From: Armillaria gallica
Taxonomy: Eukaryota > Basidiomycota > Agaricomycetes > Agaricales > Physalacriaceae
DNA: 64,000 nt
Direction of reading: 5' to 3'
NCBI GenBank assembly: GCA_037576215.1
Contig: JBANDB010000003.1
Location: 6,200,001-6,264,000 of the forward strand
How positions within the stretch are numbered: position 1 is the stretch's first letter; each line of letters starts with the position of its first letter. Positions 1 to 63,780 of this stretch are shown here, one piece after another. A program made the position numbers and the translations under genes. Under the pieces are notes generated by a model that saw nothing but the letters and a program-made list of their open reading frames with translations, made no database searches and was not told the origin of the DNA.

Positions 1-1790
1 GAGGTGAGAGGTACTTGGCACAGCCACTGGCTAAAATCAAAATACTCGAGAACACTTCTCACAAGCACATATTTCGCCTCCAGGGTTCGAACCTGGCACA
101 TGCGTGCAGACGCATCAGGCTACGTACATGTGATTTATAGATATCGACCTGGACAAGAAAGGCTCAAAGCAAAGGTACAATGTCGAAAAATAACTACGCT
201 CGCATTTATTCAGGCCCACCACACGAATCGAACGTGTGCACCGATTCTTGTGTCATTAGACTATAACATGGATGCGATGTTTACTTCTGAGACGAACGAT
301 GCGGGACTGCGAGGAGGATAAGGGAGGCGTGCCGGAAGAAGAAAAATAGAATAACGGGAGTAGTGTGGACGACGCGGACAATGTACCGTAATAGAAACCC
401 CTTGGAGCCCTAAGATTAAAGGGGCATGCACATAGTACGGAGAGTGTGTGAAAGACAGACTCTGAACGTGCCTTGTCCCGCAATAATAGAAGGAAGGTAC
501 AGCGCAGAAAATCACTCGGATTTGTCCATCCATCCAAAAGAAGGGGTTGACGACTCAAATAACTGCATTTCACCTCCAGGAGTCAAACCTGGTACATTGT
601 ACAATTCCGCCAGGCTACGGGAATAGTGGTAGGGCCGGTGTTTTTAGTGATAAGGGATGTTGCATGTGGCTGGGCGAGGCAAGGATTCTCGACCTGCCTA
701 ACATACAGCTCGACTCTCCTTGCCGTCATTCGCAGTCTTCTCCCCAAAGCCAAAGGGGTGTCCTGCCAAAGGTGGAAGGGGAAAGGACGTGAGGAGACCG
801 AGGGGCGCCCAAAACGGTAGGAAGGTGGGATAAGATCGCATGTGTTTTTCGGTAGGATTGGAGTATTTCGGTGGGAATCTTGCTTTCTGCTAGATTGACA
901 CCGTTTCCCAGTGGGATTGAGTTCGGTACAAGCATCGCACTTTCTGACGTCCAGATGCCACACTTGGGCCGCCTCCCGTTGAACATATCCGCCCTGACCT
1001 CCGCGACCTCCACCTCTCTGAATCGCACGCTGAACCCCTGGCCCTCAAAGTTCAAGTTTTTGACCCTCACGCGCACGGCTCAGCTTCACGAGTGGCTCTC
1101 ATATATGAGCCGTGCTATTTTTGCTTATGGTGAGTTCGAGACGGCTGGGAAACCGGCGGTCAGTGCGCCCAAATACCACAGCGCACGGCGGTCCGAGAAT
1201 CTAACCAACTCGACGGTGCCCCCTAGAGGTAATCCTACCGAAAATCTCCAATCCTACTGAAAAACGGTTGTGCCACCGGGAGACATCTTCGCGGGAATCC
1301 CACATTCCCACTGTTTTAGGGTATACTCATGAAATGATGAAGAATGGAATGACCACTGCGCCAGGTGGGAAGGATCGTTTGTGCAGCATGCTGGTAATAT
1401 CATGAGCATGTCAAACGAACTAGAAAAGCAAGTCTCGTACCAAGCGGGCCCGTGCTCTCTGTGCAAATGAACTGGCACGCGTCTCAAGAGTACACCCATC
1501 CTCGTGTGGATGACGTCGCGGTAGCTGCGCTTCCTCGGCGCCGATGCGAGCGTGTCATTCCCAGTAATGCCGGTGAGCGTAGGTCGAGACACTAGTCAAG
1601 ACGTATGCAATTCTTGCCCTTTCCCGTCGCGACGCCTTCCCAACACATCTCCTTGCCGTCGTTCGCGACCTTCTCTCCAGAGTCAAAGGAGTAAGCGAAA
1701 ACGACGTAAAGTCTGAAGGTCTGAACGACCATTAGGACGGTCTCTTGATAGAGGTGAACGAGTAGGACAGTAATCATGCATGAGGAAGGA
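1..1790 (-). repeat. tRNA-like composite repeat, partial unit
   Basis: Non-coding repeat sequence. Three tRNA-like units are visible on the minus strand at about 76-126, 213-265 and 568-619. Each has a T-arm whose stem arms pair around a TTCGA-type loop, followed on the plus strand by an A-box-like TAGYCTA motif. Two other recurring modules are present: a segment around 714-790 containing the words for 'ccttgccgtcattcgc' and 'ccaaaggtggaagg', and a segment around 1400-1480 with 'gcaagtctcgtaccaag'. The same modules recur in the same order at 7-13, 17-19, 50-52 and 57-59 kb. No protein-coding gene was recognised. Confidence 0.7.
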
Positions 1791-1799
1791 TGCCATATT

Positions 1800-3212
1800 C
1801 GTGAAGAGCTGCGAACTCGAGCACATTGAAAGGTAGATGTTGAGATATTCCACGTCTATTCGGAAGCCAATTCAGCAAAAGAGAGAGAGACCAGCCACTG
1901 GAAACGACGGTGGTAGTCGTTCGCATCCAACGCGCGGTCAAAAGTATTGTACACAGCCACAAGAACATCGGCATGCGGCCCGGTTACTCCATCGTTCTCT
2001 CCAACATCATCTAGCTTTCCGTGTCCGTCTTCGACCTTCCTTGTAGGTTTACTATTTCAAGCTCGGTTGACTGAGGCTAGCGCTGACTGCGTTCTGTAGA
2101 CGGGGCCTTGATGATGGACGTCTCGACAATACAAAGCCTTCTTCGACATCCGAGGCTTTTACCTCGATGGCTTCAGTCGTCAAGTACAGCGGGATTTGGT
2201 CGTCAATTACGGAACTGCCGACGAGTGTGTTAGCTGCACAATCCTCAACACCGGGCCCTGAGGTCGTCGCTTTTGAAACTAGAAGCGCGGCATATATCGT
2301 CCAGCAGAAGACATCGTACATCAGCCTCCCTCCCCTATTCCCGACGACGAACCAAGGTCCATCATCTGTTATTTTCTCCTCTTCGACGTTGCGCTCTTTT
2401 AAGATCAGGGGATCTAGATAAAGCGAGACTGAAGTGTTTTCCGGACTTCGGGGGATGCTGAATGTCCTGGCAGCCATTCTGTTTAGTTTCAGGTCAAAAT
2501 TCATCGACTCTATTGACGACTTGGTCGTGATAGTACCAAATGTCGGCCCCCTGCGCTCCAAAATGGTTGGAAAGCACCTACGTATACTACACAATCATCA
2601 TCATCAACCTACATGATACATTTACGCGGACCATATCGTCGGCATTGCCTGCTTCCGAACACATCGTCTATCCTACCAACCCTGCACGTTTGAACGTTAA
2701 CCTCATATCCTGCGTCTACGCCTCGACTACTGGCGAAGAGAGGAAGATCGCGCCAGCCAGATATGGATGTTTCGTTCACAGGAGACCATGTAATTGGCAC
2801 AGCCTGTTCCTGAATCATCCGTGCTGTGGACCTAGTCATTTGTTGGGAACCGGAGGTGGATGATTTCCGATTGTTGTGATTTAGACGCCTAGCTCCCTCC
2901 GGGGAAGGTGTCTAAATCCTGGAACCAGTCGTTCGTAGAGTTTCGATGCTTCAGCGCTAGCCGTGTTCCACTATATATTACCCTTCCGCAACCTTTACGA
3001 ATTTACGATTCAACATGTCATGACCTGGCGCCAATCATTGCGGTCTATTGTATGTGTCCTGATTAAACCTGGAGAAGACATAGCCTCGAACTCTCGGTCA
3101 GGGTTGATCTTGCGAAGCAGGGTACAGCCGAGGAAAGCATTCGCAGCATGCACGAAAGAGTACGACAACAACAGCTCTCGCAACTTGTTTCCATACCTTA
3201 ACATCGTCGCTC
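1800..3212 (+). other. Conserved non-coding leader of WW-family copy A
   Basis: About 1.3 kb upstream of copy A that is clearly homologous to 19,320-20,589 and 52,600-53,933, and in part to 13,700-14,235. It therefore travels with the gene. It contains a minus-strand open frame of 180 codons (2052-2594), but that frame is broken in the other copies, so I do not call it a gene. A strong inverted repeat sits at 2878-2918. The promoter or 5' UTR introns of the WW-family gene may lie here. No core promoter motif was identified. Confidence 0.55.
2878..2918. promoter_or_regulatory. Inverted repeat (hairpin) upstream of WW copy A
   Basis: Twelve-base arms GATTTAGACGCC (2878-2889) and GGTGTCTAAATC (2907-2918) pair with a single G-U, around a 17-nt loop. 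The same hairpin occurs at 20241-20281 before copy B, where base changes in the second arm keep G-U pairing. It lies about 300 bp upstream of the start codon. It could act as an RNA hairpin in a leader or as a protein-binding palindrome. I did not find it before copy C. Confidence 0.5.
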
Positions 3213-6200: not shown

Positions 6201-6237
6201 GATGAGATCGCATGTGATGGGTGTTGATGTAGTATAA
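3213..6237 (+). pseudogene. WW-like/four-TM family gene, copy A (frame shift in exon 6)
   Basis: Ten exons: 3213-3970, 4021-4083, 4139-4561, 4618-4705, 4751-4844, 4903-5027, 5087-5334, 5383-5577, 5627-5727, 5778-6237. The product begins with a basic arginine-rich stretch, then a Ser/Pro-rich low-complexity region. A WW-like motif follows (IPSGWSVHIHPQGVRYYV), then an all-alpha region with the family word ATVLLNANIAFLAIQS. Hydrophobic segments end the protein before a Ser/Thr-rich tail. All introns have GT-AG ends. Relative to copy B, exon 6 carries a net +5 nt change around 4970-5005, so the normal donor after 5027 leaves the frame. A weak donor 4 or 7 nt further on would restore it. I recall this as a large agaric family of unknown function. 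Probably a recent pseudogene or a diverged allele. Confidence 0.7.
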
Positions 6238-6239: not shown

Positions 6240-6780
6240 GTTGACTGGAAGGAGACGGAGTAGTTGAAAGTCGCGGTGGTACCGTGGCAACCTTGTGGTG
6301 CTTCGATGTAGCATTCAGAGTATTTGTAGTCATCATTCTCAAAAGCATAGATAAATTAGCAGGAGCCCTTTGTTGGTATATCAGTTTACTTTTCCATGAC
6401 CGTCGTCTCTCCGAGAACAGAAGAAGTAAGTCATAATGAAAAAGCACGTCAAATTCATGGCCCGCAACTCTCTCTGCATCTTAGTATGGTACCAGCAGCG
6501 GATGGGAGCATCCATGTCGGTCGCCAGCGGTCATCGGAATATCTTCAAGGAAAACAGTCGCCGATGCCTCAACGAAAGTGGTCATCGAGTGATCCCCTTT
6601 CCCCATGCTGAATTCTGTGCGTTCTGGGGCAGAGTTAAATGCAATATGTAGACTCTACGTACATAGCACCTTCAACATGAGGAATGCGTGCGTCAACAGG
6701 ATTATGAAGAGGAACATACGTGCAAGCGTGGTGTGGTCGTCGCAGCGAAAACACCCAAAAGACTTGCAGACGTATATTTT
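6240..6780 (+). other. 3' flank shared by WW-family copies
   Basis: Non-coding sequence following copy A that is homologous to 23,610-23,990, 49,690-50,200 and 56,930-57,470. It leads into the tRNA-like repeat block without a visible boundary in copies A, C and the 49.4 kb fragment. No gene was recognised. Confidence 0.5.
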
Positions 6781-9700
6781 CCCTCCAGGGTTACGTTCGA
6801 ACCTGGTATATGTAATCCTATGGATATCAACTTGTGTGAACACGAACGAGATCAAAGCAAAGGGGCGGCGCAGAAAAAAAGCTATGTTCCCAAATGACTA
6901 AGGTCCATCACAGGAATCAAACGTGTGTACTGACTCATTTGTCGTTGGACTACAGCGTGGATGAGGTGTTCATTTATGAAACGAGGACAAGAGAAGCGGT
7001 ATATCAAAGTGTGAATGAAAAAATCCCAACGACGGGGGTAGCGTGATGATGCGAACAATGTATCGTGGTAGCAATTCTTTCTGAGCCTTAGGCCTAGGGT
7101 AGGTCAAAAAAGACTCTCGATGTGTCTTGTCCTGCCATCGAGTGCCTCCGGTATAAAATGAGCGCAGAAAGGTTCCTCGGACCTGTCGTACTATCCGTCC
7201 AGACCAAAAATGTCATTCTGGGTCGATATTTTACCCCCAGGAATCGAACGTGGTACATTATACAGATCCACTAGACTATGTCCACGTGTAGAGAGCGGTG
7301 TGGACGACGTCGTAGTAGCTGCTCCTCGGAACACGTCATTTTTGGTGATGGTTGACGTGTACGGCGAGACGAGTGGAGAGGCATGCGATTCTTGTCCCAC
7401 CGGCCCTTCTCAATGCAACTAGATTCTTCTGACCCAAGAGCCGAAGGCAGAAGGGAAGAGGACCGTGAAGTGATCGGGCTGGGGGAGTCGTCAATCAGAC
7501 CAGCTACCGTGAACTGCCACCAAGATGGAGGCGGGGAGAGCTGTAATCCCAACCAACGACCCCAGGGAAGAGGCGGTGGTAGTGGATGTTACTCCCCTGA
7601 TCCGTGCACTATATTTGTAGAAGGTGTGAATCTGAACAGGTGTTGGAAGTGGCATCGGGTCGCCCATAGATGCATAGCCCTTTCTGGCGGAAGGCGAGGT
7701 CGGCAGACCAGATCTGAGGATGAAAGGGTAGATGGAATGGATAGGTCGTACGCGTGATGGGCCAGTGACTATACTTCTGCTTTTTTGACCGCTACTATCT
7801 GTGAAGACCGACGCGAATTTCCGCGTATAGCTGTTTCTATTTGCCATGGGGGAGATGGAAAGAAGGAAGATGAGCCTGAGGATGTGAGCGCATAGGGCTC
7901 TACCCGAGATGGGTGACAGGAACACACATTCCCGAGTAGCCCGCCCCTGTACGAATTGAGCGTATTGGCTTCATGCGGTGGTTGACGTCTAGGAATGGAG
8001 CGAGAATGGGATAGAGTAGCATGTCGAAAGGAGTCGCGAGTCGCAATATTTAGTCTTGGTAGACAAGAGCGATCCCCAGATGCAGATCATTCATGCAACC
8101 CACTAAAATTTGATGAGTCAAAGTCGGAGAAGTGATGGGGACATGACATACCAAAGATACGTTCCCGCTGTTTGTTCAGCTGCCAAAACGTAGTCCGGTC
8201 CAACGCGGAGTTATTATTTCACTCCCAGGACTCGAACCTGACGCATTACGCATACCCAGTAGGTTTCGACGGACTGGTGGAGAGATAATGCATACCATCC
8301 CGGTGCACATTGGTGATTTCTCGCATAGTAGAGAATAGCCATCGGTAAGAGTCGGACGTCCAATCAAATCCAGAGAGATATGTCGTCTCTAGCCCATGCC
8401 CTGAGAACTTGAAGTAATAAAACTTCACCGTGTCTCTAGGAATCGAAGTTGATGGATGCACGCTAAGACACGAGAGAACGTGCGAAGGAGAATGATGGCT
8501 GGGAGGAGCGTGTACTGGTCGAGAGAGGATCTTCCACAGGAATGTAGCAGAAACCGAGCTCCTCGTCTGGAAATGTCGTTTGCGCAGTCTGCATCCAGCT
8601 CCCGTCCACACGCGTGAGTCGGACGAGTACAGACGGCCTAGGTGGCTTCATACAGTGCCAATGGGGGATTTCATCCAGACGTGTGTAAGGTAAATGAGGT
8701 CAAACAGGAAGCGCCGCTTGTTCAGCGTTCTGGTAATCGTCTGAGTGTGAACATAATCTAGATGCTCATCAGAGTTCCAACGTGACATAGAAAGCAAGTC
8801 TCGTACCAAAGATTCCATCACAGCACCGTGTTCTCTCTACGACGCTTGGACCTGCACGCCTGTCATCTATCACAGCCAAGCTTCTACACTTCGGACCAAA
8901 CTAAAACACTCCGTGGGACATTTTCTCGTCGCTTCTTCAAGGAGAGAGGAGGAGTAGTCGAACGAAAGTACGGGAGATGAGGGCAACGAAGATCGGTCGT
9001 CGATTAGACGTACGATACAGGCAGCGTGTGAGAGTAGCTGGGTCTTGAGGTAGTGCGCATTGGATACTCTGCACGTTCGCGTTAGGTTTTACATTAGTCG
9101 ATAGGCAAAGTCCGAAGCACCTAGCGACGGGGCTGTTGAGTGGGCCATGACACCAGGATGTCCACGCGTCGTCCCATTCAGGAGCCATGGCGTGAATACC
9201 AGCCGTTATCAGAACTTCGACTGGGTCTGTAGTGGACGCGGACCAGACTTCTTCGCGAGATCGCACAGTGCGGGGCAGAACGTCACATTAGACGTCGTCG
9301 CTCGTTCGAAAGAAAGTATAGTTGAACGATACCATGGCAGGTGAGACGAGAAAGGTTGTGGTGATGACTGTCGGTTGACAAGAATGTGTGCCTGAATGTG
9401 TAACATTGCCACTGGTTACATATTTAAATTATCGTCGTGTATTTTCATTTCCGGAGCAGTAGCAAAGAAACACAGACAATTTATGTTCAAAAGAATAGAT
9501 ACGCGTAATTAGTGGTGCAATGTAGTTACAGCACAAAAAAATTGAAACCTATAACAAAGACAGGACCACTACACGAGTCGAACATAAGTATACTAAGTTG
9601 CCTGGTCAAACTATGAGGTGGAGTGCAAAGGACTATATCAAAAGGCAGGAAAAACGAGAAGGGCGAGGGAGTGTGCGGGAAGATGATAAATGAGAATACC

Positions 9701-12700
9701 CGAATAGTGTGGATGACTTCATGGGCAATGTATCACGTAGCTCTGACAAAAGAAGAGACAAACAGCAACTTCACCGGTACATTATACAGTTCCGGAGGTA
9801 GTCGTAGTAGCCGGCGAGCGCGTCGTGTTCAGTGACGGGTGATATGGCATGCACGTACGGCGCATCGAGAGGCATGCGATCCTCGTTCCGCCATCCCTTC
9901 GTAATGCTCCTTGCCATGATTCGTAAACTTCTCCCCCAAGCCAAAGGTAGGAAGAAAAAGGATGCGACGAGACCCGAGCCTGAACGTCCATCAAGACAGT
10001 CTCTGGGAAGAGGCAAGCAAGCATGACGGGAAGAATATCATTCCCCAGGACGGACGTCTTTCCGTCGAGAGTTGCAAACACGAATATCTCTAGAGCGTAT
10101 TCCAAATCAATATGCGACATCCCGAACATCGCGTCGCTCATAGATGTATAGCTCTCCCTGCAGAAGACAATCTCAGAACTGGAGAAAAAAGGGCTGAAGA
10201 ACAGGGGCCGTACACGAACAACCCATCGTCGAGAACCACGTCCTCATCTTCCTTCTTCCTCCTGCCCACCTCAATGGATGGATAATTCAACAGGGTCTGG
10301 CATGATGCGACGGTCGTAGGAGAGGAAGGAAAGAAGTTAGAAAAAGAATAGCCTCGAATTCATCACTATAAGCCCCTGCACGAATCGAACATGTCGGGGC
10401 TATACTCCCACTTCACCATGTGGTGGTCAGAAGTGTCGGAAAAGGAGCCAATAATTCAAGCACGTCTGCATTCAAGGTCCTTTTCCTCCGAATTCAAGCA
10501 ATATATGAATTAACGTGTGCGAGTGTGGTGATGCTGTTACAAGCAACAAGGTTCGGCGCAAGAAACTCACTAAAAATGGATGAGTCAAAGTGGGAGAGCG
10601 GGCGGTGCTAGACTATACGTTCCCGCCAATATCACCGCATGTTCAGCCGCCATCGATTGTCAAAAACAGATTTTTTGACAGACTCGTAATTTCACCCCCA
10701 GGACTCGAACCTAGTGCATTGCGCATACCGAGTAGGCTACAATGGACTGACAGGAGAGACTATAATGCGGCCTCGGTGCATGTCGGTGAACTTCCCGCAT
10801 CGCAGAGAATAGCCATCGGTAAGAGTTGGACGTGACGTGCAATCAAATCCAAGGAAGATAAACACCTGAGCACTGTCTTCTCTGTCCCATGCCCAGAGGA
10901 TTCGAAGCAATGAAACTGTGTCGTGTCTTTAGGAGTAAAAGTCGGTGGATTGCTAACCCACGAGAGGAGAATGACGGCCGGGAGGATGTGCGTTCTAATC
11001 GAGAGAAAGTCTTCCGCGGGGATGTAGGCTCTCTGGGGATGTGATTCACGCCATCCACGCGCGTGAGTCAGACGAGGCTAGATGGTCTAGGCAACTTCAT
11101 ATAGCGACAAGGTTCCACCCACCGGGGGACCTCACACAGACATGTGTAAGGGACCGAGACGCCAATGGCAGCACGGGAAGCGAGTTCAGCTCGTCCAGGT
11201 GAAAACATAACCTAGATGCTCATCAAAGTTCCAAAGTGACACAGAAAGCAAGTCTCGTGCCAAAGATCCCATCACGGCACTGTGTTCTCTCTGCATCAAT
11301 TTCACGTTCTACGCCGCTTGGACCTGCACGCGTCCTTCCATTCGTCACAGCCAAGTCTCGGACCACAAACCAAGGTACTCGTTGCTTCTTCGAGGAGAGA
11401 AAGGAAAGGTGGTGTTAAACGATTTCCTTGATGATGAAGTACGGGAGGTAAGAGATACCAGGCACAGCCACTGAAAATATTCAGCGTCCAAAAGAACGGT
11501 TCTCCAAGTATCTCCAGGGTTCGAGCCAGGCACATGCATTAGGCTACGTACATGTAATTTATAGATCCCGACTTGTAAAAAAGAGCCCAAACCAAAGGTC
11601 AGCGCAGAAAAAGACAACCAGGACCATTTTTTATTTATCAAGGCCCACCACACGAATCGATCGTGTGCACCGACTCTTTTGTCGTTAGACTATAATGTAG
11701 ATGGAACGTCCACTTCTAAAACGAACTATGCGGGGCTGCTAGGACGAGAATGTCATAATACACGAGTGTGCAGGAAGCATAAGAATAACCGAGGTCCGAA
11801 GGAGGGTAGCACTGGTAGGTAGTGCGGATGACACGGATGATGGAGGGAGTCGAAAACGAACTCTAGATACGCCTTGTCCCGCAATAAGAAAACCGAGGCA
11901 AGGCGCAGGAAATCGCTCAGTTTTGCTTTATCCACCAAAAAGAAGGCTACGATCGATTCCGTATTTCACCTCCAGGAGTCGAACCTGGTACATGACAGAG
12001 TTCCACTAGGCTACGAGAGTAATTGTAGTAGCCGGTGAGCGCGTCGCTTTTAGCGATGAGTGACGTAGCACGCACGTACGACGAGTCGAGGACGTGCGAT
12101 TCAGGTGGAAGGGAAACGCAGATGAGGACACTTGAGCGTTGAACGTTGACGTTAAATGCTGAATGCTGAACGACCATCAGGACGGTCTCAACCGGGAAGA
12201 GGCGAGTAAGTAGGGTGGGGAAGACTCTTCTTTGCCTTGATTCATGCACGAGAAACGACGTAATATTCGGGGAGTTTGGGGAGAGCTAAGATATTGTAAG
12301 CTGTTATAAGTCGATGAAGGAGAGAGAGACTGACGGATCTGAAGGAAAACCGGCTGATGAGTGAGTCGTACGCGAACACTGGCAGCGACCCACCATCTGT
12401 GGTAGTAAGCCACACGCATCCTTCTCTTCCTCGCGGTGACCCCCTTACCATCCCAATGAAAGCTTGAGCAGCATTATCAGAAATTGGATACTAGATAACC
12501 CAGAGGACGAAAAAGAATCAGCGTCACTTCGTTTCTGTAAACCCCGATACGAATCGAACGTGTCGCGGCCGCACTCCCACTCATCCATCTGGTGGTTGTT
12601 TGAATGAAAAAGCGATGTAACTCGAGCACGTAGAAATTCCAATGCCGGGTCTCCGAGCAATTTCTGAATTAACGCGCAGGTCGAGAGTGTGGTGAGGCTA

Positions 12701-13700
12701 GAGTTTGCTGTTCAACGCGCCAAGACCCATCCTCAGATCTCAGAAACGAACGATATCATTCAACTCACTAAAAAAGCGAAGAGTCAAAGTCGGGGAGTGA
12801 GAGGAGTGACACGACATACCATACATCCATATGTTCGCACTAATATCACTCCGTCTGTTCGTTCAACATCCATTGGTCGTCAAAACGTAGTGGTATCAAC
12901 CCCAGTATCTGATTTCACCCCCAGGACTCGAACCTGGTGCATTACGCATACCGGTAGGTTACAATAGACTGGCAGAAAAGACAGTAATGCCAACGACCTC
13001 TGCCAAAGTCCCACGTCGACAGAGTGAGACGGAAACGTCGGGAGGAACTTTATCATCCCTGCTCTCGGTAGTAGGTTTGAACGGGCCGAGAACGAGATTT
13101 GACGCAGGGTTTGAGCTGGTAGGATGCGCGTACTGATCAAGAAAAAAATCATTCTGTAGCAGAAATTACGCACCTCGTCGATTCATCCCTCGTTTGACCC
13201 ACTCACCGCATCCTCACGTAAGTCAGACGGGCATACGTGACTTTCGCCTAGATGGTTGAAACAGGATGGAGAATGAAACGACAACTGTGCTGGACATCTG
13301 AGCAGCACGCTGGTAAAATCGTGAGCATGCCAAGCGAGCTCGGAAACCAAGTCTCTCACCAAGCCAGACCATGCTCTCTCTGCACCAATTTCTACGCCAC
13401 TTGGACCTGCATCCGTCCATAATGCCAGCGAGTACATCATCCCGGTGTGGATGATGTTGTGGTGGCTGCACCTCCTCGGTGTCGATACGAGCGCATTATT
13501 CTCAGTAATGTCGGCACTAGTCGAGATGGATGCAATCCTCGACCTTTCTTCTCCCAATACAGCTGGATTCTCCTTGCCGTCATTCGCGATCTCCTCCCCA
13601 GAGTCAAAGGTGGAAGGGAAAAGAACGTGGAGAGACTAGTTGACCGGTCTCTGGGAAGAGGTGAACGAGTAGAACGGGAAGAGTGCTAATTCCTTGGTCC
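6780..13700 (-). repeat. tRNA-like composite repeat block (about 7 kb)
   Basis: Non-coding block with at least twelve tRNA-like units on the minus strand, at about 6781-6835, 6903-6953, 7230-7279, 8217-8270, 9562-9615, 10373-10423, 10690-10740, 11511-11550, 11642-11693, 11964-12016, 12540-12594 and 12912-12962. The unit at 11964-12016, read on the minus strand, shows A box TAGCCTAGTGG, 17 nt, then B box GGTTCGACTCC inside a CCAGG/CCTGG stem with a 7-nt loop. Non-tRNA modules recur between units, for example near 8760-8880, 11218-11340 and 13320-13430. Many short open frames occur but none is conserved between copies. Confidence 0.75.
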
Positions 13701-17087: not shown

Positions 17088-19310
17088 ACTATCGTAGTAG
17101 AAACCCCTTCGGAGCCCTAGGCTTAACGTTATGCACATTGTACGGAGAGCATGCCAAAGACGAACTCTAATTGTGCCTTGTCCCGCAATGAGAAAACCAG
17201 GGTAGAGCACAAAAATTACTCGGATTTGGTTTATCTACCAAAAGAAGGCGAGTATATCACGAGTGTGAATGAAGAAGAATGAAGAAGAATAAGAAAAGGT
17301 GTCGTGACGGGTTATGTATTTCACCTCCAGGAGTCAAACCTGTTGCATTATACAGTTCTGCTAGGCTAAGAGAGTAGTCGTAGTAGTCGGTGTTTTTAGT
17401 GACGAGGGATGTTGCATGTGGCTGGGCGAGCAAGAGGTATGCGATTCTCGACCCGCTTGACATACAGCTCGACTCTCCTTGCCGTCATTCGCGGTCTTCT
17501 CCCCAGAGCCAAAGGGGTGTGCCGCCAAAGGTGGAAGGAGAATGGACGGAGGAGACTTGAACGTTAACGTTTATCGTTGAACGACCATCAGGACGAGGCG
17601 AGCGGATGGGACAGGAAGAATGTTCGTTCCCCTGCTCATGCACGAGAAAGGACGTAATATTCGGGGCCAGCTGCACCTCGAAAGATGGATTTTAACCTGT
17701 TCCAAGTCGATGAATTCGCAAAGGAGAGTGAGACTGGCGAATCTAAAGAAAAAAACAGTTGATGAGTAGGTCGTACGCGAACAACTAGCAGTGACGTACC
17801 ATCTGTGGTAAGCCACTCTTCCTAATGGTGACCTCCTTCTTGCCATCCCAATGGGAGCATGAGTGGCATATTCGATAGCTCTTTGACACACAAGAGGACG
17901 AAAAAGACACCAGTAAAAGTCATATCAAATCAACCCTATCAATCCCTGTACGAATCGAACGTGTCAGGGCCGCGCTCCGACTCATCCATACGGTGGTTAA
18001 AAGCTTGAATGGAAAAGAAGAGCTGATTCGAGCGCAATATGTCGGGTCGGAGCCTTTCCTCCGAGAAATTTATGAATTAACGCGTGAGTCGAGAATGTGG
18101 TGAGACTAGACTTTGTTATTCAACGCAACAAGAGCCGTCCTCAGATACGGACCATATCATTCAGCTCAAGCAATCCGCTAAAAATTGATAAGTCCAAGTC
18201 GGGGAGGGAGGGATGTCATGGCATACCAAATATCCATACGTTCACACTAACATCACCCTGTCCGTTTGTTCAGCCACCATCGGAAACGTAGTTGTCAGAA
18301 CGTTGATCATTTTGTCATGATTTCACCCTCAGGACTCGAACATGGTGCATTACGCATACCCAATAGGCTACAATATACTGGTAGGCAAGACGGTGCGCCA
18401 GCAATCTCTGTCGGTTTCCCGTGTCGGGAAGATTGAGACGTCCAATAGAGGAGCTTTATCCCGGCTCTAAAGAACCGAATACTGAGTACCGAGAGATAAG
18501 CCACAAGATGGCGTACGAACGAGTATTCGGACAAAGGAATCAGGCTCGCAGGATGCTCGAGAAAAAATCATCCTATAGCAAGAACCAAGCTCCTCGTCTC
18601 CCGGGGTGTCCTTTGTGCCATCCTATCCCACTGGTATTGCGTAGGTCAGACGGGCCTAGGCCAGACGTAATAGTATAAGACGTCTGAGAAGAGGGAAAAC
18701 AAGGGAAAGTGTAAATCGAACAAACGGAGGTGGGAACGGGGTGAACCTAGATGCTCATGAGCATGCCAAACGAACTCGGAAAGCAAGTCTCGTACCAAGC
18801 GGGACCGTGCTCTCTCTGCACCAATTTCACGCTCTGCGCAATTTGGACCTGCGTGCATCTAGAACGCCAGCGATAGACACCCGTGGTGTGGATGACGTCG
18901 TGGTGGCTGCACTGCCGACTCGACGTCGATACGAGCATGTTGTTCTCAGTGATGTCGATGAGCATCCATGCACGCACGTCGACAGTGGTCGAGAGGGATC
19001 TGATTCTCGTCCTTCCTTACCCCGCCACCTCCTCCCAATGCAGCCGGATCCTCCTTGCTGTCATTCGCAATCTTCTCACTAGAGCTAAAGGTGGAAGGGA
19101 AAAGAGAATTGGAGCTTGAACATTGAACGACCACTGTCAGGGTCGGTCTCTGGGAAGAGGTGAACGAGTAGGATAGGAAGGATGATACTCCCTTGATCCA
19201 TGCACGGGGAAGGACGCCATATCCGTGGAGGTCTGCGAGCTCGAGAACTCGAAAGGTAGATGTTAAGCTGTTCCACGTCGATGTGGAAGACAGTTTCGGC
19301 AAGAGGGTGA
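17088..19310 (-). repeat. tRNA-like composite repeat block
   Basis: Minus-strand tRNA-like units at about 17319-17370, 17941-17995 and 18319-18371, with the usual modules between them: around 17470-17540, 17585-17660, and 18750-18870 with the 'gcaagtctcgtaccaagcggg' word. The module order matches the 7-13 kb block. The left edge truncates the IRG-like remnant. The right edge runs directly into the leader of WW copy B. Confidence 0.7.
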
Positions 19311-24599: not shown

Positions 24600-25330
24600 G
24601 CCTGAATGAGAACTGGTCAAGTCTGTGGAAGGAGGCAGCGCAGCCGTACAAAACATCGCAAAGATCGGATTTCACTTCTAGGAGTCACCTGGTGCATTAC
24701 ACAAGGCCTACTAAGTTATATGGACCACGCCGGGAAAAACGTGGATGTCATCAACGAAGCATTGTTACAGGCATATGCCCAAGCCTAAACATCGAGCACG
24801 TCGTCCTTGATACACTTAGCGCGCGTCTTGTCCTGCGGCCCTTTCCCGACAATTCTCCTCGTCTGTGACCTTCTCCCGGAGCCAAAGGCAGATGGGAAGA
24901 AGGATCGACAGGCAAAGCGTCAGTCGGACATTAAGGCGAGAAAGTTACGTGGTGACCACTGACAGCGAGGAGGAGAGGGAACGTCAGATTGGAGACGATC
25001 GTTCTCGACGACGAACGAGGGACTAAGTTGGTGTGTTCCAATGGGGCGAGTACGGAACGAGACAAGAATGCGAACCGAAACACAACGATGGAGTATATGC
25101 ACGACTGTGCACTTCGAGCGGCTGTCGCTTGGTACGAGGTTTCCTCACGGGAGTATGATTGAGCAGGACATGTAAATCCGACCAAACGAAGGTTATAGCT
25201 AATCATAGCAGGTCAAAGGTCCCATTTGTTGGCGCCTAGATGCTTATGAGCATACTTAAGTGACACAAAAACAAAAATTCCCATACCAGAATTCCTATCA
25301 CACGTCTTCTGCCTTGCTAGAGGTAACACG
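24600..25330 (-). repeat. tRNA-like composite repeat, degenerate unit
   Basis: A degenerate tRNA-like unit at 24669-24718, with its T-loop largely deleted, is followed by the module series also seen at 60,490-61,760. That series includes 'caggcatatgcccaagcctaaac' and the 'gatgcttatgagcat' module near 25230-25320. The two stretches are clearly homologous over about 650 bp. Confidence 0.55.
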
Positions 25331-27200: not shown

Positions 27201-27204
27201 TTCG

Positions 27205-27715
27205 GAAATCCGTCCCCAGGATTCGAACCTGGGGCATCCAATGCTTGGTCATGGCCGGACATTCATGTTAACGAGGCAGCCGATGAACGTTCAACCTGCC
27301 CGATAATCGATGTAGGATGTTACTTGTCGCCATGCTAGCATGCACAACGCTGCTCGAGATCGTCTGTTCATTGGCATGGGCGGTCGAAACGCGGTGACCG
27401 AGGTCAAAATTGCATAAAGGCTGCCAGTTTCGAGCCAGTTCCACCCTCGGGACTCGAACCTGGGGCTTCCATGGTTTATGGCTCAGAATCCAATCCAAGC
27501 AGAGCTAGGAGGAATGACAGTAAGCGGACAGAATGTCGTCGTCTCGATGAGCTATGGCATGACGAGAGAGTCGAGGATTAGCTGCTTTCAGCTATGCGTT
27601 TAGACTTGGACGAGCATGGTCATACCAAAAAATTGTTTATAGCAATATTACTAGACTCTAATTTGACCTCCGGGAATCGAACCCAGTCCACTGCGTATGC
27701 CCGCCAGACTACGTT
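27205..27715 (-). repeat. Three tRNA-like units
   Basis: Units on the minus strand at 27210-27259, 27439-27488 and 27663-27713. The first has a seven-base T-stem (CCCCAGG/CCTGGGG) around TTCGAAT, and short flanking GTCC/GGAC complementarity that resembles a minimal acceptor stem. These units are more divergent from the common classes than the others. No anticodon arm can be drawn. Confidence 0.6.
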
Positions 27716-27949
27716 GATCTGATTATCTGGACTACTTGCCTCAAGGATGATGCACACCGGAATTTCGGATCAGAGGAACGAGAGAATACGATCCGCCATC
27801 CCTCCTCTCAATTATAAACTCCTACTACGATGTTAGAATGTACAAGAACTGGTAGAAAACATGGCCAATGTACTGAGTCGGAACCTAGTGCATGACCAGG
27901 GAGGGATGCTACATGCTAGGCCATGGATACTTTACATGTTATCTTGCAA

Positions 27950-42386: not shown

Positions 42387-42389
42387 ATT

Positions 42390-49420: not shown

Positions 49421-49424
49421 CGAG

Positions 49425-50199: not shown

Positions 50200-52600
50200 G
50201 GTGGGTTCCCCTCTAGGGTTACGTTCAAGCCTAGTATATATATCATGTGAACACGAAAGGGTTCGAAACAAAGGTACATCACAGAAAAAAAACTAGGTTT
50301 CCAAATAACTAAGGTCCATTACACGAATCGAACGTGTGCACTGACTCGTGAGTCGTTGGACTAAAGCGTGGATGGGGCGTTTATGTATGAAATGAGGATG
50401 AGAGAGGCAGTATATCACGAGTATGGATGAAGAAGAATGAGAAAACCCCAAGGACGGGAGTGGCGTGATGATGCAGACAATGTATCGTGGTAGAAATTCT
50501 CTCTGAACCATAGGCCTCGCGTAGTACGGAGAGAGGTCAAAAACAGACTGTCGACCGTGTCTTGTCCTGACAGAGTGCCTCCGGTATATGAAGGGCGGAA
50601 AAAGGTTCCTCAGACGTGTTGTACTATCCGTCCAGACCAAGGATGACATTCTGGGTCGACATTTTGCTTCCAGGAACCAAATGTGGTACAAGATCCACTA
50701 GGTTACGTCCACGTGTGGGAAGTGGTGTGGATGACGTCGTAGTAGTTACTCCTCGGAACACGTCGTTTTTGGTGATGGTTAACGTGTACGGCGGGGCGAG
50801 TCGAGAGACATCCGATTATTGTCCTACCGGCCCTTTTCAATGCTCCATGCCGTGATTCGCGAACTTCTCCCTCAAGCCAAAGATAGAAAGAAAAAAGATG
50901 CGACGAGACTTGAGCCTGAACGTTCATCTAAACAGTTTCTGGGAAGAGGCAACGGGAAGAATATCGTTCCCGAGGAAGGATCATATTCGAGAGAGCTGGA
51001 CCCCAAGAGGGTATTCCAAGTCGAGATGCGAAGAACAACATCCCAAACATCGTGGCGCCCATAGAAGTATAGCTCTCCCTGCAGAAGACAGTTTCAGAAC
51101 TGGAGAAAAAAGGGCTGATAAGCGGGGGACGCACACGAACAGCCGGCCGTTGACAACCACAACCACAACCTCCTCTTCCTTCTTCCAGTGCTGGATTCCT
51201 TCTTCCCATCTCCTCTATGGTCGATGGAAGCGTATTCCAACAGAGTCTGATACGACGCGACGGTCGTAGGATAAGAGGGAAAGAAGCTGGGAAAAGAACC
51301 GCATAGGAAAAAACGTCACTATAACCCCTGCACGAATTGAACGAGTCGGGTCTGCACTCCCATTTCACCATGCGGTTAGAACTGTTGAAAAAGGAGCTAA
51401 TGATTCGACCACGGCTACACTCAAGGCTCCAAGTCTAAGCAATGTATGAAGTAACACGTACGCCCCGCGGGCCAAGAGTGTGATAATGTTGTTAGACGCG
51501 ACAAGAGCCATCCTCAGGTACGGGCCATTTCCTTTGGCCCACTAAGAATTGATTAGTAAAAGTCAGAGAGTGGGAGGAAGGACATGACATACCGGACATA
51601 CGTTCCCGCCAATATCGCCGTTTGTTCAGCCTGTCAAAAATGGTTTGGTCCCATTGCGCGGATTTGAACCTGGTGCATTACGCATACCCAATTTTGCTAC
51701 AATAGACCGGTAGGAAGACAAGAAGTTCCCGCATTGAGGTCATCGGGACGAGTGAGACGTCCAACGAAAAGAAAGGGAGGAGCGCTTTATCCTTGCTCGA
51801 AAGGGCTTAGAGCTAAGTGCTAAGTCAAGAGATGGCGTGCGAATGAGAATGACGACGTGTTTGGGCTGGCAGGATGCTCCAGAGAAAATCAGTCGGTGGA
51901 GGAACCAAGCTTCTCGTCTCCATGGGTGTCGTTTGTGGTATCCGTACCCACTCACACACATCCTACCCCGGAGAAGCATAAGAATCAGATGATTGACAAG
52001 AGGTTGAAATGGGATGGAGAATCGAATGACACCCGCGAAGGGTGGGAAGGATCGACGCTGCCAATATCATGAGCATGTCAAACGAACTCTGAAAGTAAAT
52101 CTCGTACCAAGCGGGCCCGTGCTCTCTCTGCACTAGTTTCACACTTGGACCTGTACGCCAGCACGAGTGTGGATCGGGTCGTGATGCCTTCACCTCCGAC
52201 TCGGCGTCGATACGAGAGTGTCGTTTTCAGCGATGTCGATGAGCGCCCATGTGCGCACGTCGAGACACTGGTCGAGAGGGATGTTATTCTCGTCCTTCCC
52301 TACCCTGCCACCTCCTCCCAGTGCAGCCAGATTCTCCTTGCGTCATTCGCGATCTTCTCACCAGAGCCGAAGGTGGAAGGGAAAGGAGACTTGAAGCTTG
52401 AACGTTGAACGTTGAACGACCGGTAGAGGTGAACGAGTAGGACAGGACAGGAAGGATGATGTTCTCTTGATCCATGCACGAGGAAGGAAGCCATATCCGT
52501 GGAAAGCTGTGAATTTGAGGGCTTCGAAAGGTAATAAGCTGTTCCACGTCGATGTGGAAGACAGTTTTGGCAATAGAGAGTGAAAGGCTAAAGTTCACCG
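50200..52600 (-). repeat. tRNA-like composite repeat block
   Basis: Units at about 50205-50240 (degenerate), 50313-50364, 50661-50706, 51323-51375 and 51650-51700, with the modules near 50,820-51,000, 52,068-52,150 and 52,330-52,500 in the standard order. It runs without a break into the leader of WW copy C. Confidence 0.7.
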
Positions 52601-56929: not shown

Positions 56930-59760
56930 GTTGACTGGAAGGAGACGGAGTAGAAAGTCGCGTTGGTACCGTGGCAACCTCATGATGCTTCGGTGTAGCA
57001 CCCAGAGTGTTTGTAGTCATCATTCTCAAAGCCATAGACAAAGTAGTAGGAGACCTTTGTCGATATTCAGTTTACCTTTCCATGACCGTCGTCTCTCCGA
57101 GAACAGAAGAAGCAAAGTCATAATGAATAAGCACGTCAAATTCATCGCCCGCAACTCTCTCTGTATCGTGGAAGCAGGAGTACTAGCAGCTGATGGGAGT
57201 ATCCATGTCAGTCACCATTGGCCATCGGAATATTTTTGAGGAAAACATTCGCCGACGGCCTCAACGAAAGTGGTCATTGAGTGATCCCCTTCCCCATGCT
57301 GAGTTCGGTGTGTTTTGGGGCAGAGTTAAATGGAATATGTGGACTCTATAGACACAGCACCTTTAACATGAGAAGTACGTATGACAATAGGATTGTGGAG
57401 AGGAACATACATGCAAGCGTGGTGGGGTCGTCGCAGTGAAAGCACCCTAAAGACTTTGTAGACATATATTTCCCTTCCAGGATTACTTCCGTTCAAAATT
57501 AGTACATGTCAGCCATGATATGATCTTGTGAACACAAAAGGGCTCAAAACATGAGTACAGCGCAGAAAAAAAAACGCTATGTTCACAATTAAACCAAATG
57601 ACTAAGGCCCATCACACGAATCGAACGTGTGCACTGACTCTGGTGTCGTTGGACTACAGCGTGGATGGGGTAATCATTTCTGGAACGAGGACGAGAGGAA
57701 CAGTATTTCACGAGTGTGAATGAGAAAACCCCAAGGACGGCATTCTGGGTCGACCTTTTACCTCCAGGAGTCGTACGTGGTACATCATGCAGATCCACTA
57801 GGTTACGCCCACGTGCGGGAAGCGGCGTGGATGACTTCGTAGTAGCGCAACACGTCGTTTTTGGTGATAGTTACAAGTTGAGAGACATACGATTATTGTC
57901 CCGCCGGCCCTTCTCGATGCTCCTTGCCGTGATTAACAGACTTCTCCCCCAAGCCAAAGGTAGAAAGAAAAAGGATGCGACGAGACTTGAGTCTGAACGT
58001 TCATCTACACGGTTTCTGGGAAGAGGCAACGGGAAGAATGTCGTTCCCGAGGGAGGATCATATTCGAGAGAGCTGCACCTCAAGAGGGTATTGCAAGTCG
58101 AGATGCGAAGAACAACCCCCAAACGTCGTGTCACCCATATACGTATAGCTCTTCCTGCAGGAAACAATTTCAGAACAAAAGAAAAGGGGCTGATAAGCGG
58201 GGGACGTACACGAACAACCAATCGTTGAGAACCACGACTTCCTCTTCCCTCTTCCAGTGCTAGATTCCTCCTTGCCGTCTCCTCTTATGGTCGATGGAAG
58301 CGTAATCCAACTGGGTCTGGCATGACGCGACGGTCGTAGGATAAGAGGGAAAGAAGTTGGAAAAAGAATCGTGTCCGAAAAGACGTCACTATAACCCCAG
58401 CACAAATAGAACGTATCGGGTCTGCATCCCCATTTCACCATGTAGTGATTGGAAAAGGAGCTAATGATTCGACAGCGTCTACATTCAAAGCTCCGAGTCC
58501 AAGCAATATATGAAGTAGCGTGTGCGCCTAGCGGGCCAAAAGTGTGATAGTGTTGTCACAGACGACAAGAGCCACCCTCAGGTTTGGACCATTTCGTTCG
58601 GCTCAAGCAACCCACTAAGAATTGATGAGACATAGTCGGAGAGTGAGTGGAAGGACATGACATACTAAACATACGTTCCTGCCAATATCACTGTTTGTTC
58701 AGCCTGTCAGAAATGGTTCGGTCCCATTGCGCGCATTCGAACCTGGTGCATTACGCGTATCCAACAGCCTACAATAGACCGGCAGGAAGACAAGAAGTTC
58801 CCGCATCGAGGTCATCGGGACGAGTGAGACGTCCAACGGAAAGAAAGGGAGGAGCGCTTTATCCCTACTGGAAAGGGCCTAGAGATAAGCGCTAAGCGAA
58901 GAGATAGTGTGCGAACAAGAATGACGACGTGTTTGGGCTGGTAGGATGCTCCAGAGAAAATCAGTCGGTAGGGAAACCAAGCTCCTCGTCTCCATGGGTG
59001 TTGTTTGTGGTATCCGTATCCACTCACACACATCCTACCCACGGAGACATATAAGATGATTGAGAAGACGTCGAAATGGGATGGAGAATCGAATGACAAC
59101 CGTGCCGGGTGGAAAGGACCGATGCTGCCGATATCATGAGCACGTCAAACGAACTCTGAAAGTAAATCTCGTACCAAGCGGGCCCGTGCTCTTTCTGCAC
59201 CGATTCCATGCTCTACGTCACTTAGACATACACACGTCTATAACGTGGCAGCTGCACCTTCTCGGTGAGCATGTCGTTCTGAGGACGTCGATAGCAAGAC
59301 GAGTCGAAAGGGATGCAATTTTCGTCCTTTCATGTCCCGGCCTCCTCCCAATACATTTCCTTGCCGTTGGTCGCGACCTTCTTTCCAGAGTCGAAGGTAA
59401 AAGGGAAAAAGACAAGAGACATGAACGGTATCTGGGAAGAGGTGAACGAGTAGGACGAGAAGGCTGTTAATCCCTTGATCTAAAAAAAACGGACTGATGA
59501 GTGAGCCGTATGCGAACAGCTGGCAAAGACGCACCAGTCGTTAGGATCCTCATGCACTCCTTTTCTTAGCGTGTCCTCTAGGTCCAATGTCCATGGAAAA
59601 TGTGTAAGTAACAGTCATTATGAGAGATTCGAGTCAAGTCTCGCTAGACATGGAAGGTTCATGTTCCGGCATTCGGCCCGATCGCCGACTCTCCAAGCTT
59701 TTTCTAAGCGGAATCAATCCAGTTTTTTAGTTGTTCTCCTACTTACCGTCATGTAAGTAT
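56930..59760 (-). repeat. WW 3' flank followed by tRNA-like repeat block
   Basis: The 3' flank to about 57,470 is followed by units at 57476-57510 (degenerate), 57606-57660, 57757-57807, 58393-58445 and 58728-58773. The modules at 57,910-58,070, 59,138-59,230 and 59,345-59,480 match the 50.2-52.5 kb block in order and spacing. An open frame at 57716-58228 has no counterpart that stays open in other copies. Confidence 0.7.
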
Positions 59761-59979: not shown

Positions 59980-61760
59980 TTGAATTCCACCTTAGGACTC
60001 GAGCCTGGTGCGGTTGTGTGAACACACTAGGCTACCTTGTGCGCAAGTTATATACACCACCCTGCGACCAAGAGAGAGCTTAAAACAAAGGTAGAATGCC
60101 CTCAAAGATCCATGACCACGCAATCGAGTGCGTACATTGACTTTGGTCTCGTTAGACTTTAAAGCGGATGGAGTGGAGCGGAACACTCACGGCCAGCGAT
60201 AAGATTGGCAATGCCATAATCTTGCGACGGATCTGAGGGTCTACGGAAAGAATAAGCATAATTATCTGTGGATAGGCGAGTTGGAGCCTACATTTTGGTG
60301 TCTCTCCAAATTAAAAGTGGGCATCCTGCTCTGCTTCCGACCGCTTTCTGAAACCCACGGTCTCGATTTATTCATCACCGAACCTGGATACCATCCGGAA
60401 TCCTTAAGCACTGAGCAGAAGACGTAGTATCAATAAATCCCACGCTCGAGTAGGGAAAGCACAACCAAAAAATACGCCAACGGCTACTGTCACCTCCAGG
60501 AGTCGAACCTGGTGCATCACACAAGATCAACTAAGCTGTATGTCCCATGCCGAGAGTACCGGGGATAACGTCAACGAGGCATTGTCGCAGGCATATGCCC
60601 AAGCCTAAACGTAGAGGCGTCGTCCTTGAGACACATAAGGCGCGCTTTGTCCTGCAGCCATTTTCCAACGATTCTCCTCGTCTTTAACCTTCTCCCTGGG
60701 GCCGAAGGCGGATGGGGTGACAGGCAAAGAGTTCATCAGACAACATAGCACATGACCCTATCAAGTGAACGACCAACAGGCAACAAGATGGACGAGGATC
60801 TCAACCACACACGGAAAATAAGGCAGCAAAAAAGCCTACAACCAAGAACCCAACGCCGAGCGGTCTCTTCAACGTTGCTCAATAATGTGGCAGTCAAAAA
60901 TCAAAACTCCTGCATTTCACCCCTAGGAATCGAACCTGTTGCATTACGCACATCCACTGGGCTACGATGGACTGTCAGAGAAACAATGACACCAGGCATC
61001 TCGTTCTACATCAAAGAGAATAGAGGTCATCAGGAAGAGTCAGACGTTCAATCGAAGCGAAGATAATAAACGTCCGAGCTCGCCATCTTCCCTATCCTGT
61101 TTCCTGGCGGTAAGGGGAAGCAATACCAAACTTCGACATCAAGGCCAAGCAGCCAAGCAAAAGAGCAGACTTTTTTTAAAGCTAGTTCACCTCCAGGACC
61201 CGAACCTGGTTCATCCGTGTATCAACATACTAGGTCATGTCAAGGTGAGGGAGTAGCGGGGCGAGAGTGAGGTGAGGAGTCGAACTAGACAGGAGAGGGT
61301 TGTTCTCGAGTTCGACGGCGAACGAGGGATTGAGTTGATATTGCTGGGGTACTGAGCGAGCCGAGGGTGCAAACTGGAATGGACGAATCAATGGTGTGTG
61401 GGGGATGAATTATATACGTGAGATTGCGCTTTGAGTGGGTGTAGTGGCACGCTACCTGTTACGAGTTTCCTTTGAAGGAGTCTGATATGGGCAAGATACA
61501 CGCGAAACTGAGCAGGATATGGTGAAACGACGACCAAGCGAAATCTGAAGCTGAACGGTGACAATCGTAGCAGGTCCGAGGGTCAATTGGCACCTATAGA
61601 TGTTCATAAGCGTGCTGAAGCGACTCCAAAAGCAGGATTTCCGTACCAAGATTTCCATGCCGCATCTTCTGCTGAGGAATAGAGGTCACAGGAGACCTGC
61701 ACCGAAGCCAGGCCGTACGTGTTACCTCTCCAGTTGGGCCTGCGCGCATCCTGGGCCCGA
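59980..61760 (-). repeat. tRNA-like composite repeat block, second variant
   Basis: Units at 59985-60036, 60489-60541, 60914-60966 and 61186-61238. Modules from 60,540 to 60,730 match 24,720-24,900. The module at 61,600-61,740 is the 'gtaccaagatttccatgccgc' variant of the one at 25,260. The interval 60,200-60,480 holds nothing recognisable. Confidence 0.65.
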
Positions 61761-62213: not shown

Positions 62214-62321
62214 CGACACCAGCAGGATTTGAACCTGCGCACTCAGAGAGTAACAGATGAATATGAGGACGAATTCCTATATCATTCTAATCTGTCGCCT
62301 TAACCACTTGGCTATAGTGCC
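62214..62321 (-). tRNA. tRNA-Ser (AGA) with a 26-nt intron
   Basis: The acceptor GGCACTA pairs fully with TGGTGTC (two G-U), and the discriminator is G as expected for serine. The anticodon stem ACAGA/TCTGT closes a loop TTAGAA interrupted, after the base 3' of the anticodon, by an intron of about 26 nt. A long variable arm (ACTC/GAGT) and a perfect T-arm GCAGG-TTCAAAT-CCTGC are present. The B box GGTTCAAATCC and an A-box-like region are intact. This is the only unit in the window with a complete cloverleaf, in contrast to the tRNA-like units. Confidence 0.92.
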
Positions 62322-62944: not shown

Positions 62945-62949
62945 TGCGC

Positions 62950-63720
62950 CGCCACAGTCTCTATTTACGCTGCTGCTGGAGGGGTACACACCTTTCCAAC
63001 GTATAGGGTCTCGCCGTGTACGCGGAGGGGGTCGACAGGATCGTTACAACGGTACTACACTCCGTCTAGCGGCCCTAAAGATTCGAACATACGACGACTA
63101 TGTCTTTAACGCAAGCAGGAAGAGAGGACCAGGTGGCCCAGATGATCTTGCCGGATGGAAGTATGGCTCGAGGACGCGCCTAGATATCGAACAATTCCCG
63201 CTGCCCTCTCTGTTCACCTGTGAAAACCTCTACTTTCATCCGTGAAAAATCAGCGCTCCACTATCCATTGTTACGATTGCACTCCCCAGCTTGCAGGACG
63301 TAAAAAAATTTGACCGTTCTCTTCAATCCATTCTCTGATGCTATACGCATTACTGATACCAACTGCTCGTACCTGTTTGAATACAGGCCGTAGTCTTCCG
63401 TTAAAACGAACGTCGTATCAAAGCCCGACCTCTTCCCAAGTAACCACCTGAACTCCACGTCTTCTCTTTCCCTGTCAACTTTAACAGTCGGAGAAGATAC
63501 GATTGACTGTCATGTCACCTTCATACCGTCGACGCCAACCAATGGGTACGCCTCGTTGAATGAAGCGTCGGATGCGGAGAGGGTCTCGATGTAATTACTA
63601 CAACAGACATGGGGAAGGACCTTCCAAACATACCGCGCAACCATCCCCTAAACGAACGCACAGTGTCTGTTTATCAGGTCTCGTGGGATTACTCGAGTAC
63701 AACCAAAAAACTAGAGATGT
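62950..63720. other. Interval with no assigned gene
   Basis: It may contain 5' exons of the gene at 62.4 kb. A minus-strand open frame at 63261-63458 has no recognised motif. Confidence 0.35.
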
Positions 63721-63729
63721 TGACATAAT

Positions 63730-63780
63730 TTTACCTCCAGGAGTCGAACCTGGTGCATTGCACAGACTCGCTAGGCTAGT
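63730..63780 (-). repeat. tRNA-like unit
   Basis: On the minus strand: A-box-like TAGCCTAGCGAG, then B box GGTTCGACTCC within a CCAGG/CCTGG T-arm. No anticodon arm. Confidence 0.65.

Follow-up and report, generated by a model that had tools for sequence, protein, structure and literature searches.

A and B boxes are shared by several small RNAs made by RNA polymerase III (Pol III), among them vault RNA, snaR and TMER, and the snaR genes are clustered. The closest described systems in which Pol III genes form arrays are the rodent 4.5SH RNA genes and the tRNA arrays of Entamoeba. The former are short, contain boxes A and B, end in a T-run terminator and number in the hundreds, every copy occupying a tandem repeat of 4-5 kb (PMC7279448); the latter form 25 distinct tandem array units of at most 5 genes (PMC2652664). 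In fungal repeats, tRNA-derived boxes A and B are found in the long terminal repeats (LTRs) of Helenus, terminal-repeat retrotransposons in miniature (TRIM) reported from some Agaricomycetes (PMC10886601). Here we describe a locus of Armillaria gallica that shares features with all three, namely a window of 64,000 nucleotides (C3:6200001-6264000, the whole stretch analysed) punctuated by short tRNA-like units, which we studied within a contiguous 264 kb of the same contig (C3:6050001-6314000) and within a searched genome of 86 Mb in 28 contigs. With a probability of roughly 0.57, we read these units as short type 2 Pol III transcription units derived from tRNA genes and amplified in cassettes.

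The differences from the described systems are considerable. The 4.5SH arrays encode one RNA, derived from 7SL RNA, whereas the Armillaria units fall into several diverged tRNA-like classes per cassette, occur at several loci and have more closely spaced boxes. In the Entamoeba arrays, short tandem repeats separate tRNA (and 5S) genes, whereas the units here lack an anticodon arm and are not called as tRNAs. Helenus is a retrotransposon with LTRs, a primer-binding site and 5-bp duplications (PMC10886601), whereas the units occur in multi-unit cassettes of fixed order; this order and the presence of several classes argue against a Helenus TRIM identity. The annotation of A. gallica Jzi34 lists 308 tRNAs, 14 short interspersed nuclear element (SINE) copies totalling 975 bp and no small RNA (PMC10204328), and the units thus seem to be unannotated in that strain. 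Arrays like these, whether from Armillaria or from another mushroom, were not described in the titles and opening lines of abstracts that we surveyed, a survey that leaves out most subscription journals and preprints.

Units were collected with iterated nhmmer profiles. Over the 264 kb, cut-offs of E<1e-3 for the CCAGG group and E<1e-8 for classes H and I yielded 49 CCAGG-group units, 10 units of class H (CACACG) and 10 of class I (CCCCTGCACG). In the window, where the cut-offs were E<1e-3 for the CCAGG group and, more loosely, E<1e-4 for the CACACG class and E<1e-5 for the CCCCTGCACG class, 39 units were found (25, 7 and 7, respectively). All 39 lie on the minus strand, as the original prediction, which counted at least 40, had stated. 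Simple motifs give the same orientation: exact GGTTCGANTCC occurs 10 times on the minus strand and never on the plus strand, and GTTCRANYC occurs 33 times on the minus and 5 times on the plus strand, or 19 and 0 times when at least four T-stem pairs are required.

The units share a common plan in which a box A close to TRGYCTAGTGG is followed, after about 16-20 nt, by a T-arm such as CCAGG-TTCGANT-CCTGG that contains box B; in most units of the CCAGG group, GGTGAAAT or a near variant stands directly behind the T-arm. The profile search confirmed the T-arm with a Pol III B box that had been proposed for each unit, and the gap between the boxes, first given as 16-19 nt, measures about 16-20 nt by eye in nearly all of 34 aligned units and about 25 nt in one. 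The box A consensus is TRGYNNANNNG. Of 19 T-arms in the window, 5 have a perfect match to it in the preceding 45 nt, compared with 0.5 (maximum 3) in 500 shuffles, so that A-box-like motifs near the T-arms are commoner than expected by chance. The earlier motif TAGYCTAGTGG stands for a consensus and not for a fixed string, its literal form occurring only twice in the window; box A is imperfect in many units.

Neither tRNA search recognised the units. ARAGORN called no tRNA in the window or in 24 unit loci and recovered 19 of 20 control tRNA loci, and the sole Rfam tRNA match in the window is a true tRNA gene (62214-62321). With Rfam, no match to vault RNA, snaR or TMER appeared in the window at E values up to 10, and tRNA aside it reported just two sub-threshold hits to mir-8364, of 27 and 26 bits against a gathering threshold of 67, at 28939-28981. 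That segment is a short inverted repeat, matched on both strands, and it overlaps a class I unit at its upstream end. A comparison with 21 tRNA genes, which do not cover all isotypes, showed that those of the tRNA-Ser(AGA) type, including the gene at 62214-62321, are nearest to the unit consensus (28 of 36 positions). As a lead only, the window units may have originated from tRNA-Ser and those on contig C1 from tRNA-Ala.

We then considered termination signals, scored as a run of at least four T (T4) 10-45 nt 3' of the T-arm. Over the 264 kb, such a run follows 36 of 49 CCAGG-group, 10 of 10 class H and 9 of 10 class I units (55/69), compared with a background rate of 0.109 per 35 nt. Runs of four A in the same stretch numbered 7, 1 and 0, respectively. 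In four flanking 35-nt windows, T4 runs were present in 6-8 of 49 CCAGG-group, 0-6 of 10 class H and 0-2 of 10 class I units, and the T-arm together with the 45 nt before it contained one in 2 of 49 CCAGG-group and none of 10 class H units. As a calibration, 20 of 20 true tRNA genes sampled from the same genome have a T4 run 0-25 nt past their end. The T-runs on most units, taken together with boxes A and B, indicate that most units carry the signal set of a type 2 Pol III gene.

The units are arranged in cassettes with the order J-A-I-B-H-C on the unit strand, which was recognised by eye, whole or in part, in about ten cassettes of the 264 kb. Most cassettes are incomplete; a cassette measures about 1.5-2 kb, with about 150-800 nt between units. 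Module J is not tRNA-like, its copies lacking the plan of A box and T-arm by eye, and was not counted as a unit. Other units (F, E, A', D and G) are found in between. The claim that several classes alternate in a fixed order with non-tRNA modules thus holds, mostly for partial cassettes. A further non-tRNA module of 77 nt, D6, occurs in 10 copies amid the cassettes (694-770, 13548-13624, 19029-19105 and seven more).

Orientation is uniform within blocks and flips between them. Self-comparison of the window at E 1e-6 gave 75 forward and 0 reverse matches, and that of the 264 kb at E 1e-10 gave 205 forward and 114 reverse matches. Twelve units at C3:6.065-6.080 Mb are on the plus strand, as are most of those at C3:6.337-6.453 Mb. 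Within the 264 kb, the profile search found no unit at 6.08-6.17 Mb apart from a weak match on a tRNA, and none at 6.264-6.314 Mb. Altogether, the duplicated cassettes span C3:6.06-6.53 Mb and include inverted blocks, and with inverted blocks of the same units nearby, the single strand in the window is accounted for by co-oriented duplication; the random scatter of orientations that would have spoken against an ordered array was not seen. BLAST placed the cassette at no fewer than 125 sites, of which 118 fall within C3:6.06-6.53 Mb, five within C6:5.300-5.302 Mb and two on C11. Similarly, 46 of 58 matches to a combined A-box and B-box pattern fall in this 0.46-Mb locus of C3, and the remaining 12, including one in the C6 cassette, do not reach the 16 obtained with a reversed-pattern control. 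The C6 cassette (C6:5299900-5302300), on another chromosome, carries units B, H and I in that order. When nine cassettes were aligned, A and I were in place in all (with 16-base gaps in I in two), B was in place in all but one, where it aligned poorly, and H and C were absent from several or could not be aligned there. Neither A nor I showed a clean empty site among the nine, a weak test, as the alignment was global and anchored on A.

The same architecture recurs elsewhere in the genome. The exact B box GGTTCGANTCC occurs 1176 times, true tRNA genes included (e.g., C2:708694 and C2:4583200), compared with 143 for a reversed control. With TTTT 22-42 nt downstream, GGTTCGANTCC gives 1157 matches (control 14), and GGTTCGACTCC with TTTTT at the same distance gives 146 (control 0), a long T-run being counted several times in both cases. 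The listed B boxes number 100 and all lie on C1; by eye, a T4 run 22-42 nt downstream accompanies 76 of them, 82 fall into three regions totalling 0.5 Mb that were picked after viewing, and 3 of the 81 neighbour pairs within 50 kb differ in strand. Of the 85 distinct places listed for GGTTCGACTCC with TTTTT, 38 of 41 neighbour pairs within 20 kb are on the same strand and 12 places are isolated by more than 100 kb. The sampled regions carry different sequence families. A 9-kb region of C1 (L093), which was chosen since matches lay there and therefore illustrates rather than measures the pattern, has 12 T-arms on the plus and none on the minus strand, 11 of them with a T4 run, and a perfect A box for 7 of 12 (0.54 expected, maximum 4); two adjacent repeats of about 3.4 kb carry five unit types in the same order. 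L093 also contains a 38-nt inverted repeat pair (1105-1142 and 1338-1375) of 89% identity, 195 nt apart. Four units at 225-361 kb of C2 combine a different A box, TCGTCCAACTAGTGR, with a T-arm and a T-run 28-32 nt downstream.

Conservation was assessed in bins of 10 alignment columns. In class A, where 15 of 29 copies had full flanks, the stretch reaching from box A to GGTGAAAT has an identity of 0.70-0.94; over the following 20 columns, the tail, the value drops to 0.42 and then 0.28, and it recovers to 0.56 at the T-run. Classes B and L together (12 of 17 copies) behave similarly, with 0.76-0.84 in the core, 0.37 and 0.22 in the tail and 0.48 at the T-run. In the nine cassettes, anchored only on A, local maxima of identity are found at I (0.82), B (0.75) and H (0.62). 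The boxes are thus conserved, conservation peaks at the units are partly shown, and further stretches outside the units are conserved too. The T-stem was tested for covariation with 62 distinct T-arms from several loci: its second pair is paired in 50 (shuffled mean 39.4, maximum 47 in 1000 shuffles) and its third in 45 (mean 30.1, maximum 42), with the caveat that related sequences may beat shuffles without any structure. Within groups, covariation is weak in CCAGG and moderate in H and I. A candidate 3-bp mini-hairpin replacing the anticodon arm exceeds shuffles in class A (7 of 300 shuffles as high), class C (2 of 300) and the pooled set (4 of 300); it is not above shuffles in B, L and D, and covariation of the combined structure is not above them on most measures. 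In 30 arms from C1 and C2, which include a few neighbouring T-arms of the same loci, the acceptor stem scored 13.42, above all 200 controls (mean 11.9, maximum 13.12).

In the model that we favour, boxes A and B would serve as binding sites for TFIIIC, which would in turn bring in TFIIIB and Pol III. A unit comprises box A and a T-arm with box B, too close together to accommodate an anticodon arm, followed by a variable tail (about 20-35 nt) and an oligo-T terminator, and its RNA would be about 90-110 nt long if transcription starts 10-15 nt before box A, an assumed start site. A cassette holds up to six modules, five of them units, and cassettes have spread together with neighbouring genes through tandem and segmental duplication, which leaves the units co-oriented within blocks. 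Transcription is inferred, and of the three roles originally proposed, the best match is that of a source of small Pol III RNAs, given the A box, the B box and the well-placed T-run of most units.

Several results weigh against this model. The boxes of type 2 promoters are 30-40 bp apart (PMC7279448), and the gap in the units is well below that; promoter strength is therefore doubtful. Degenerate, dead-looking copies are common, several window units have broken B boxes, and in 7 of the 39 the 45 nt behind the T-arm contain no T4 run. Class H also has many T4 runs in two flanking windows (6/10 each), and such runs occur in the T-arm or the preceding 45 nt in 5 of 10 class I units, where those that were read sit 5' of box A. 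The core peak of classes A and B is partly built in, because their copies were found with a core profile. Identity stays at 0.45-0.76 beyond the T-run of class A, outside the predicted transcript (e.g., about 12790-12875, minus strand), reaches 0.69-0.75 in some upstream bins of classes B and L, and is as high as 0.76, 0.71 and 0.68 in non-unit stretches of the nine cassettes. These conserved stretches, together with the weak empty-site test, slightly lower our confidence in the units as Pol III genes. As for structure, the outermost T-stem pair shows no covariation (42 paired, mean 40.2), and L093 arms entered that test only with at least three pairs. The 81 predicted transcripts fold no better than dinucleotide shuffles (class mean z +0.57 to -0.53), values that compare with -0.26 for C1 units, a mean of -1.15 for 20 true tRNAs and -0.07 for random locus sequence. 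The acceptor stem of 71 units from the window locus averages 11.75 compared with 12.06 after re-pairing, 175 of 200 controls being as high. Two further results stand apart from these objections: RNAalifold found no useful structure in the unit alignment, and antisense targets of 54 variable tails within the 264 kb were not apparent, the longest exact match being at most 13 nt in 51 of 54 (shuffles up to 15); the 21-23-nt matches of the other three are taken to be inverted duplicates. The missing folding signal and the variable tail incline us slightly to the view that the loading of TFIIIC and Pol III, not the RNA, is what matters.

Unremarkable folds, common degenerate copies and conservation beyond the units are also what one would expect of relics, i.e., tRNA genes that lost the anticodon arm, spread by duplication and are now functionless, and the resemblance to tRNA-Ser(AGA)-type genes, one of them inside the array, fits such a history. 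We nevertheless regard it as unlikely, since drift alone predicts neither local maxima at the boxes nor retained T-runs nor a common plan at several loci with different sequences. The boxes, which are among the most conserved parts, and the unremarkable RNA fold would equally suit extra-TFIIIC sites (ETC, or COC-like), at which TFIIIC binding organises chromatin or bounds domains with little or no Pol III transcription, and the short box gap may suit binding more than transcription. Such sites need no T-runs, yet these are present in 55 of 69 units and behind 76 of the 100 listed C1 B boxes, which suggests transcription over bare TFIIIC binding; moreover, the stretch between the boxes is conserved too. 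We give this explanation, which covers the boundary role in the original prediction, a somewhat smaller chance than functionless relics.

Old, locally accumulated families of tRNA-derived SINEs would explain why the units are short, carry A and B boxes and exist as many diverged copies, and Pol III terminators are known in some SINEs (PMC8466645). Against this, the copies are not interspersed and cluster in one locus, the strand is single by block (3 switches in 81 C1 pairs and 38 of 41 same-strand pairs, among matches listed), the cassette order is fixed, the nine cassettes offer no clean empty site for A or I in what is a weak test, and the A. gallica annotation contains the 14 SINE copies mentioned above (PMC10204328). 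The composite SINE of the original prediction is thus disfavoured, a SINE origin of the present copies is unlikely, and we consider accumulated SINE families highly improbable. An extension of the Pol III gene model, which we rate as speculative and improbable, is that minimal tRNA-like Pol III genes, many hundreds in number, form a system spanning the whole genome, and that their co-oriented cassette arrays arose repeatedly from different tRNAs; in each RNA, a constant tRNA-like head would be followed by a variable tail of 20-35 nt with oligo-U at its end, and cleavage by tRNase Z behind the T-arm would release diverse trailer small RNAs, similar in layout to PIWI-interacting RNA (piRNA) or 21U-RNA clusters.

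The terminators, the duplication and the recurrence of the pattern elsewhere in the genome go beyond what had been noticed in the window. If transcribed, the units would add up to a large class of Pol III genes apparently overlooked by current annotation (308 tRNAs listed for Jzi34 versus 1176 exact B boxes in the related genome searched here). They would also be a natural test of how much a tRNA gene can lose and still recruit Pol III, and they would bear on the expansion of Pol III arrays and on whether tRNA-like arrays shape fungal chromosomes.

Units and other features of the window. Coordinates are window positions; units were placed by profile search, and the T4 column gives the distance in nt 3' of the T-arm.
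Feature	Position	Strand	T4	Remarks
Class C	69..132	-	37	
Class H	178..300	-	29	with flanks
Class B	562..624	-	36	
WW-domain transmembrane protein gene, copy 1	3213-6234	+		multi-exon
Class C-like	6774..6812	-	29	degenerate; E 3.6e-4
Class H	6866..6992	-	28	
Class L (B-like)	7223..7291	-	26	
Class A	8212..8281	-	36	
Class H	9526..9650	-	28	
Class I	10334..10457	-	30	
Class A	10684..10756	-	31	
Class C	11510..11555	-	20	degenerate
Class H	11599..11725	-	36	
Class B	11958..12020	-	30	
Class I	12503..12627	-	30	
Class A	12907..12978	-	35	
Class B	17315..17374	-	29	
Class I	17904..18028	-	27	
Class A	18312..18385	-	none within 45 nt	
WW-domain transmembrane protein gene, copy 2	20590-23606	+		multi-exon
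Class D	24666..24733	-	24	B box broken
Class G	27202..27239	-	none within 45 nt	
Class G-like	27432..27468	-	37	
Weakly class A	27659..27722	-	37	
Class I	28853..28976	-	none within 45 nt	
Class I fragment	29418..29475	-		E 2.7e-6; profile positions 4-61 only; T-arm score 10/21
Class A	29714..29785	-	28	
Exons like adenylate-forming reductase	33083-36314	-		NAD_binding_4, AMP-binding_C_3; AMP-binding below cut-off
Sugar_tr match	41962-42471			below cut-off
WW-domain gene fragment	49418-49687			
Class H	50276..50403	-	27	
Class L	50656..50722	-	none within 45 nt	degenerate
Class I	51314..51406	-	14	
Class A	51660..51716	-	16	degenerate
WW-domain transmembrane protein gene, copy 3	53934-56924	+		multi-exon
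Class H	57561..57696	-	38	
Class L	57752..57821	-	35	
Class I	58380..58467	-	16	degenerate
Class A	58735..58788	-	none within 45 nt	degenerate
Weakly class D	59981..60038	-	none within 45 nt	
Weak class H match	60096..60175	-	30	E 5.8e-5; T-arm score 11/20
Class D	60485..60541	-	23	
Class A'	60911..60979	-	16	
Class E	61178..61251	-	30	
True tRNA gene	62214-62321	-		Rfam; intron of about 26 nt; inside the array, not a unit; tRNA-Ser AGA by eye from likeness to L078 and L080
Class F	63721..63779	-	26	

The description of the whole stretch as long non-coding repeats does not hold, as three WW-domain gene copies and other genes sit between the units. The WW-domain membrane protein has its best matches in Armillaria, with 87% to an A. 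gallica protein and other Armillaria as the next named hits; more copies of the gene lie at C3:6.179-6.193 Mb, and the family has several Armillaria members. A general tie between the units and the WW-domain genes was rejected, the gene copies of this locus, among the places scored, being at C3:6.179-6.257 Mb and the units reaching 6.53 Mb. L078 and L080, from which the isotype of the tRNA gene in the table was judged, are its intronless relatives elsewhere in the genome, and Rfam tRNA matches of similar length, a likeness by length alone, occur in the same locus at C3:6452023, 6521496 and 6528934. Finally, a 108-nt repeat is present in two tandem copies at 16705-16922.

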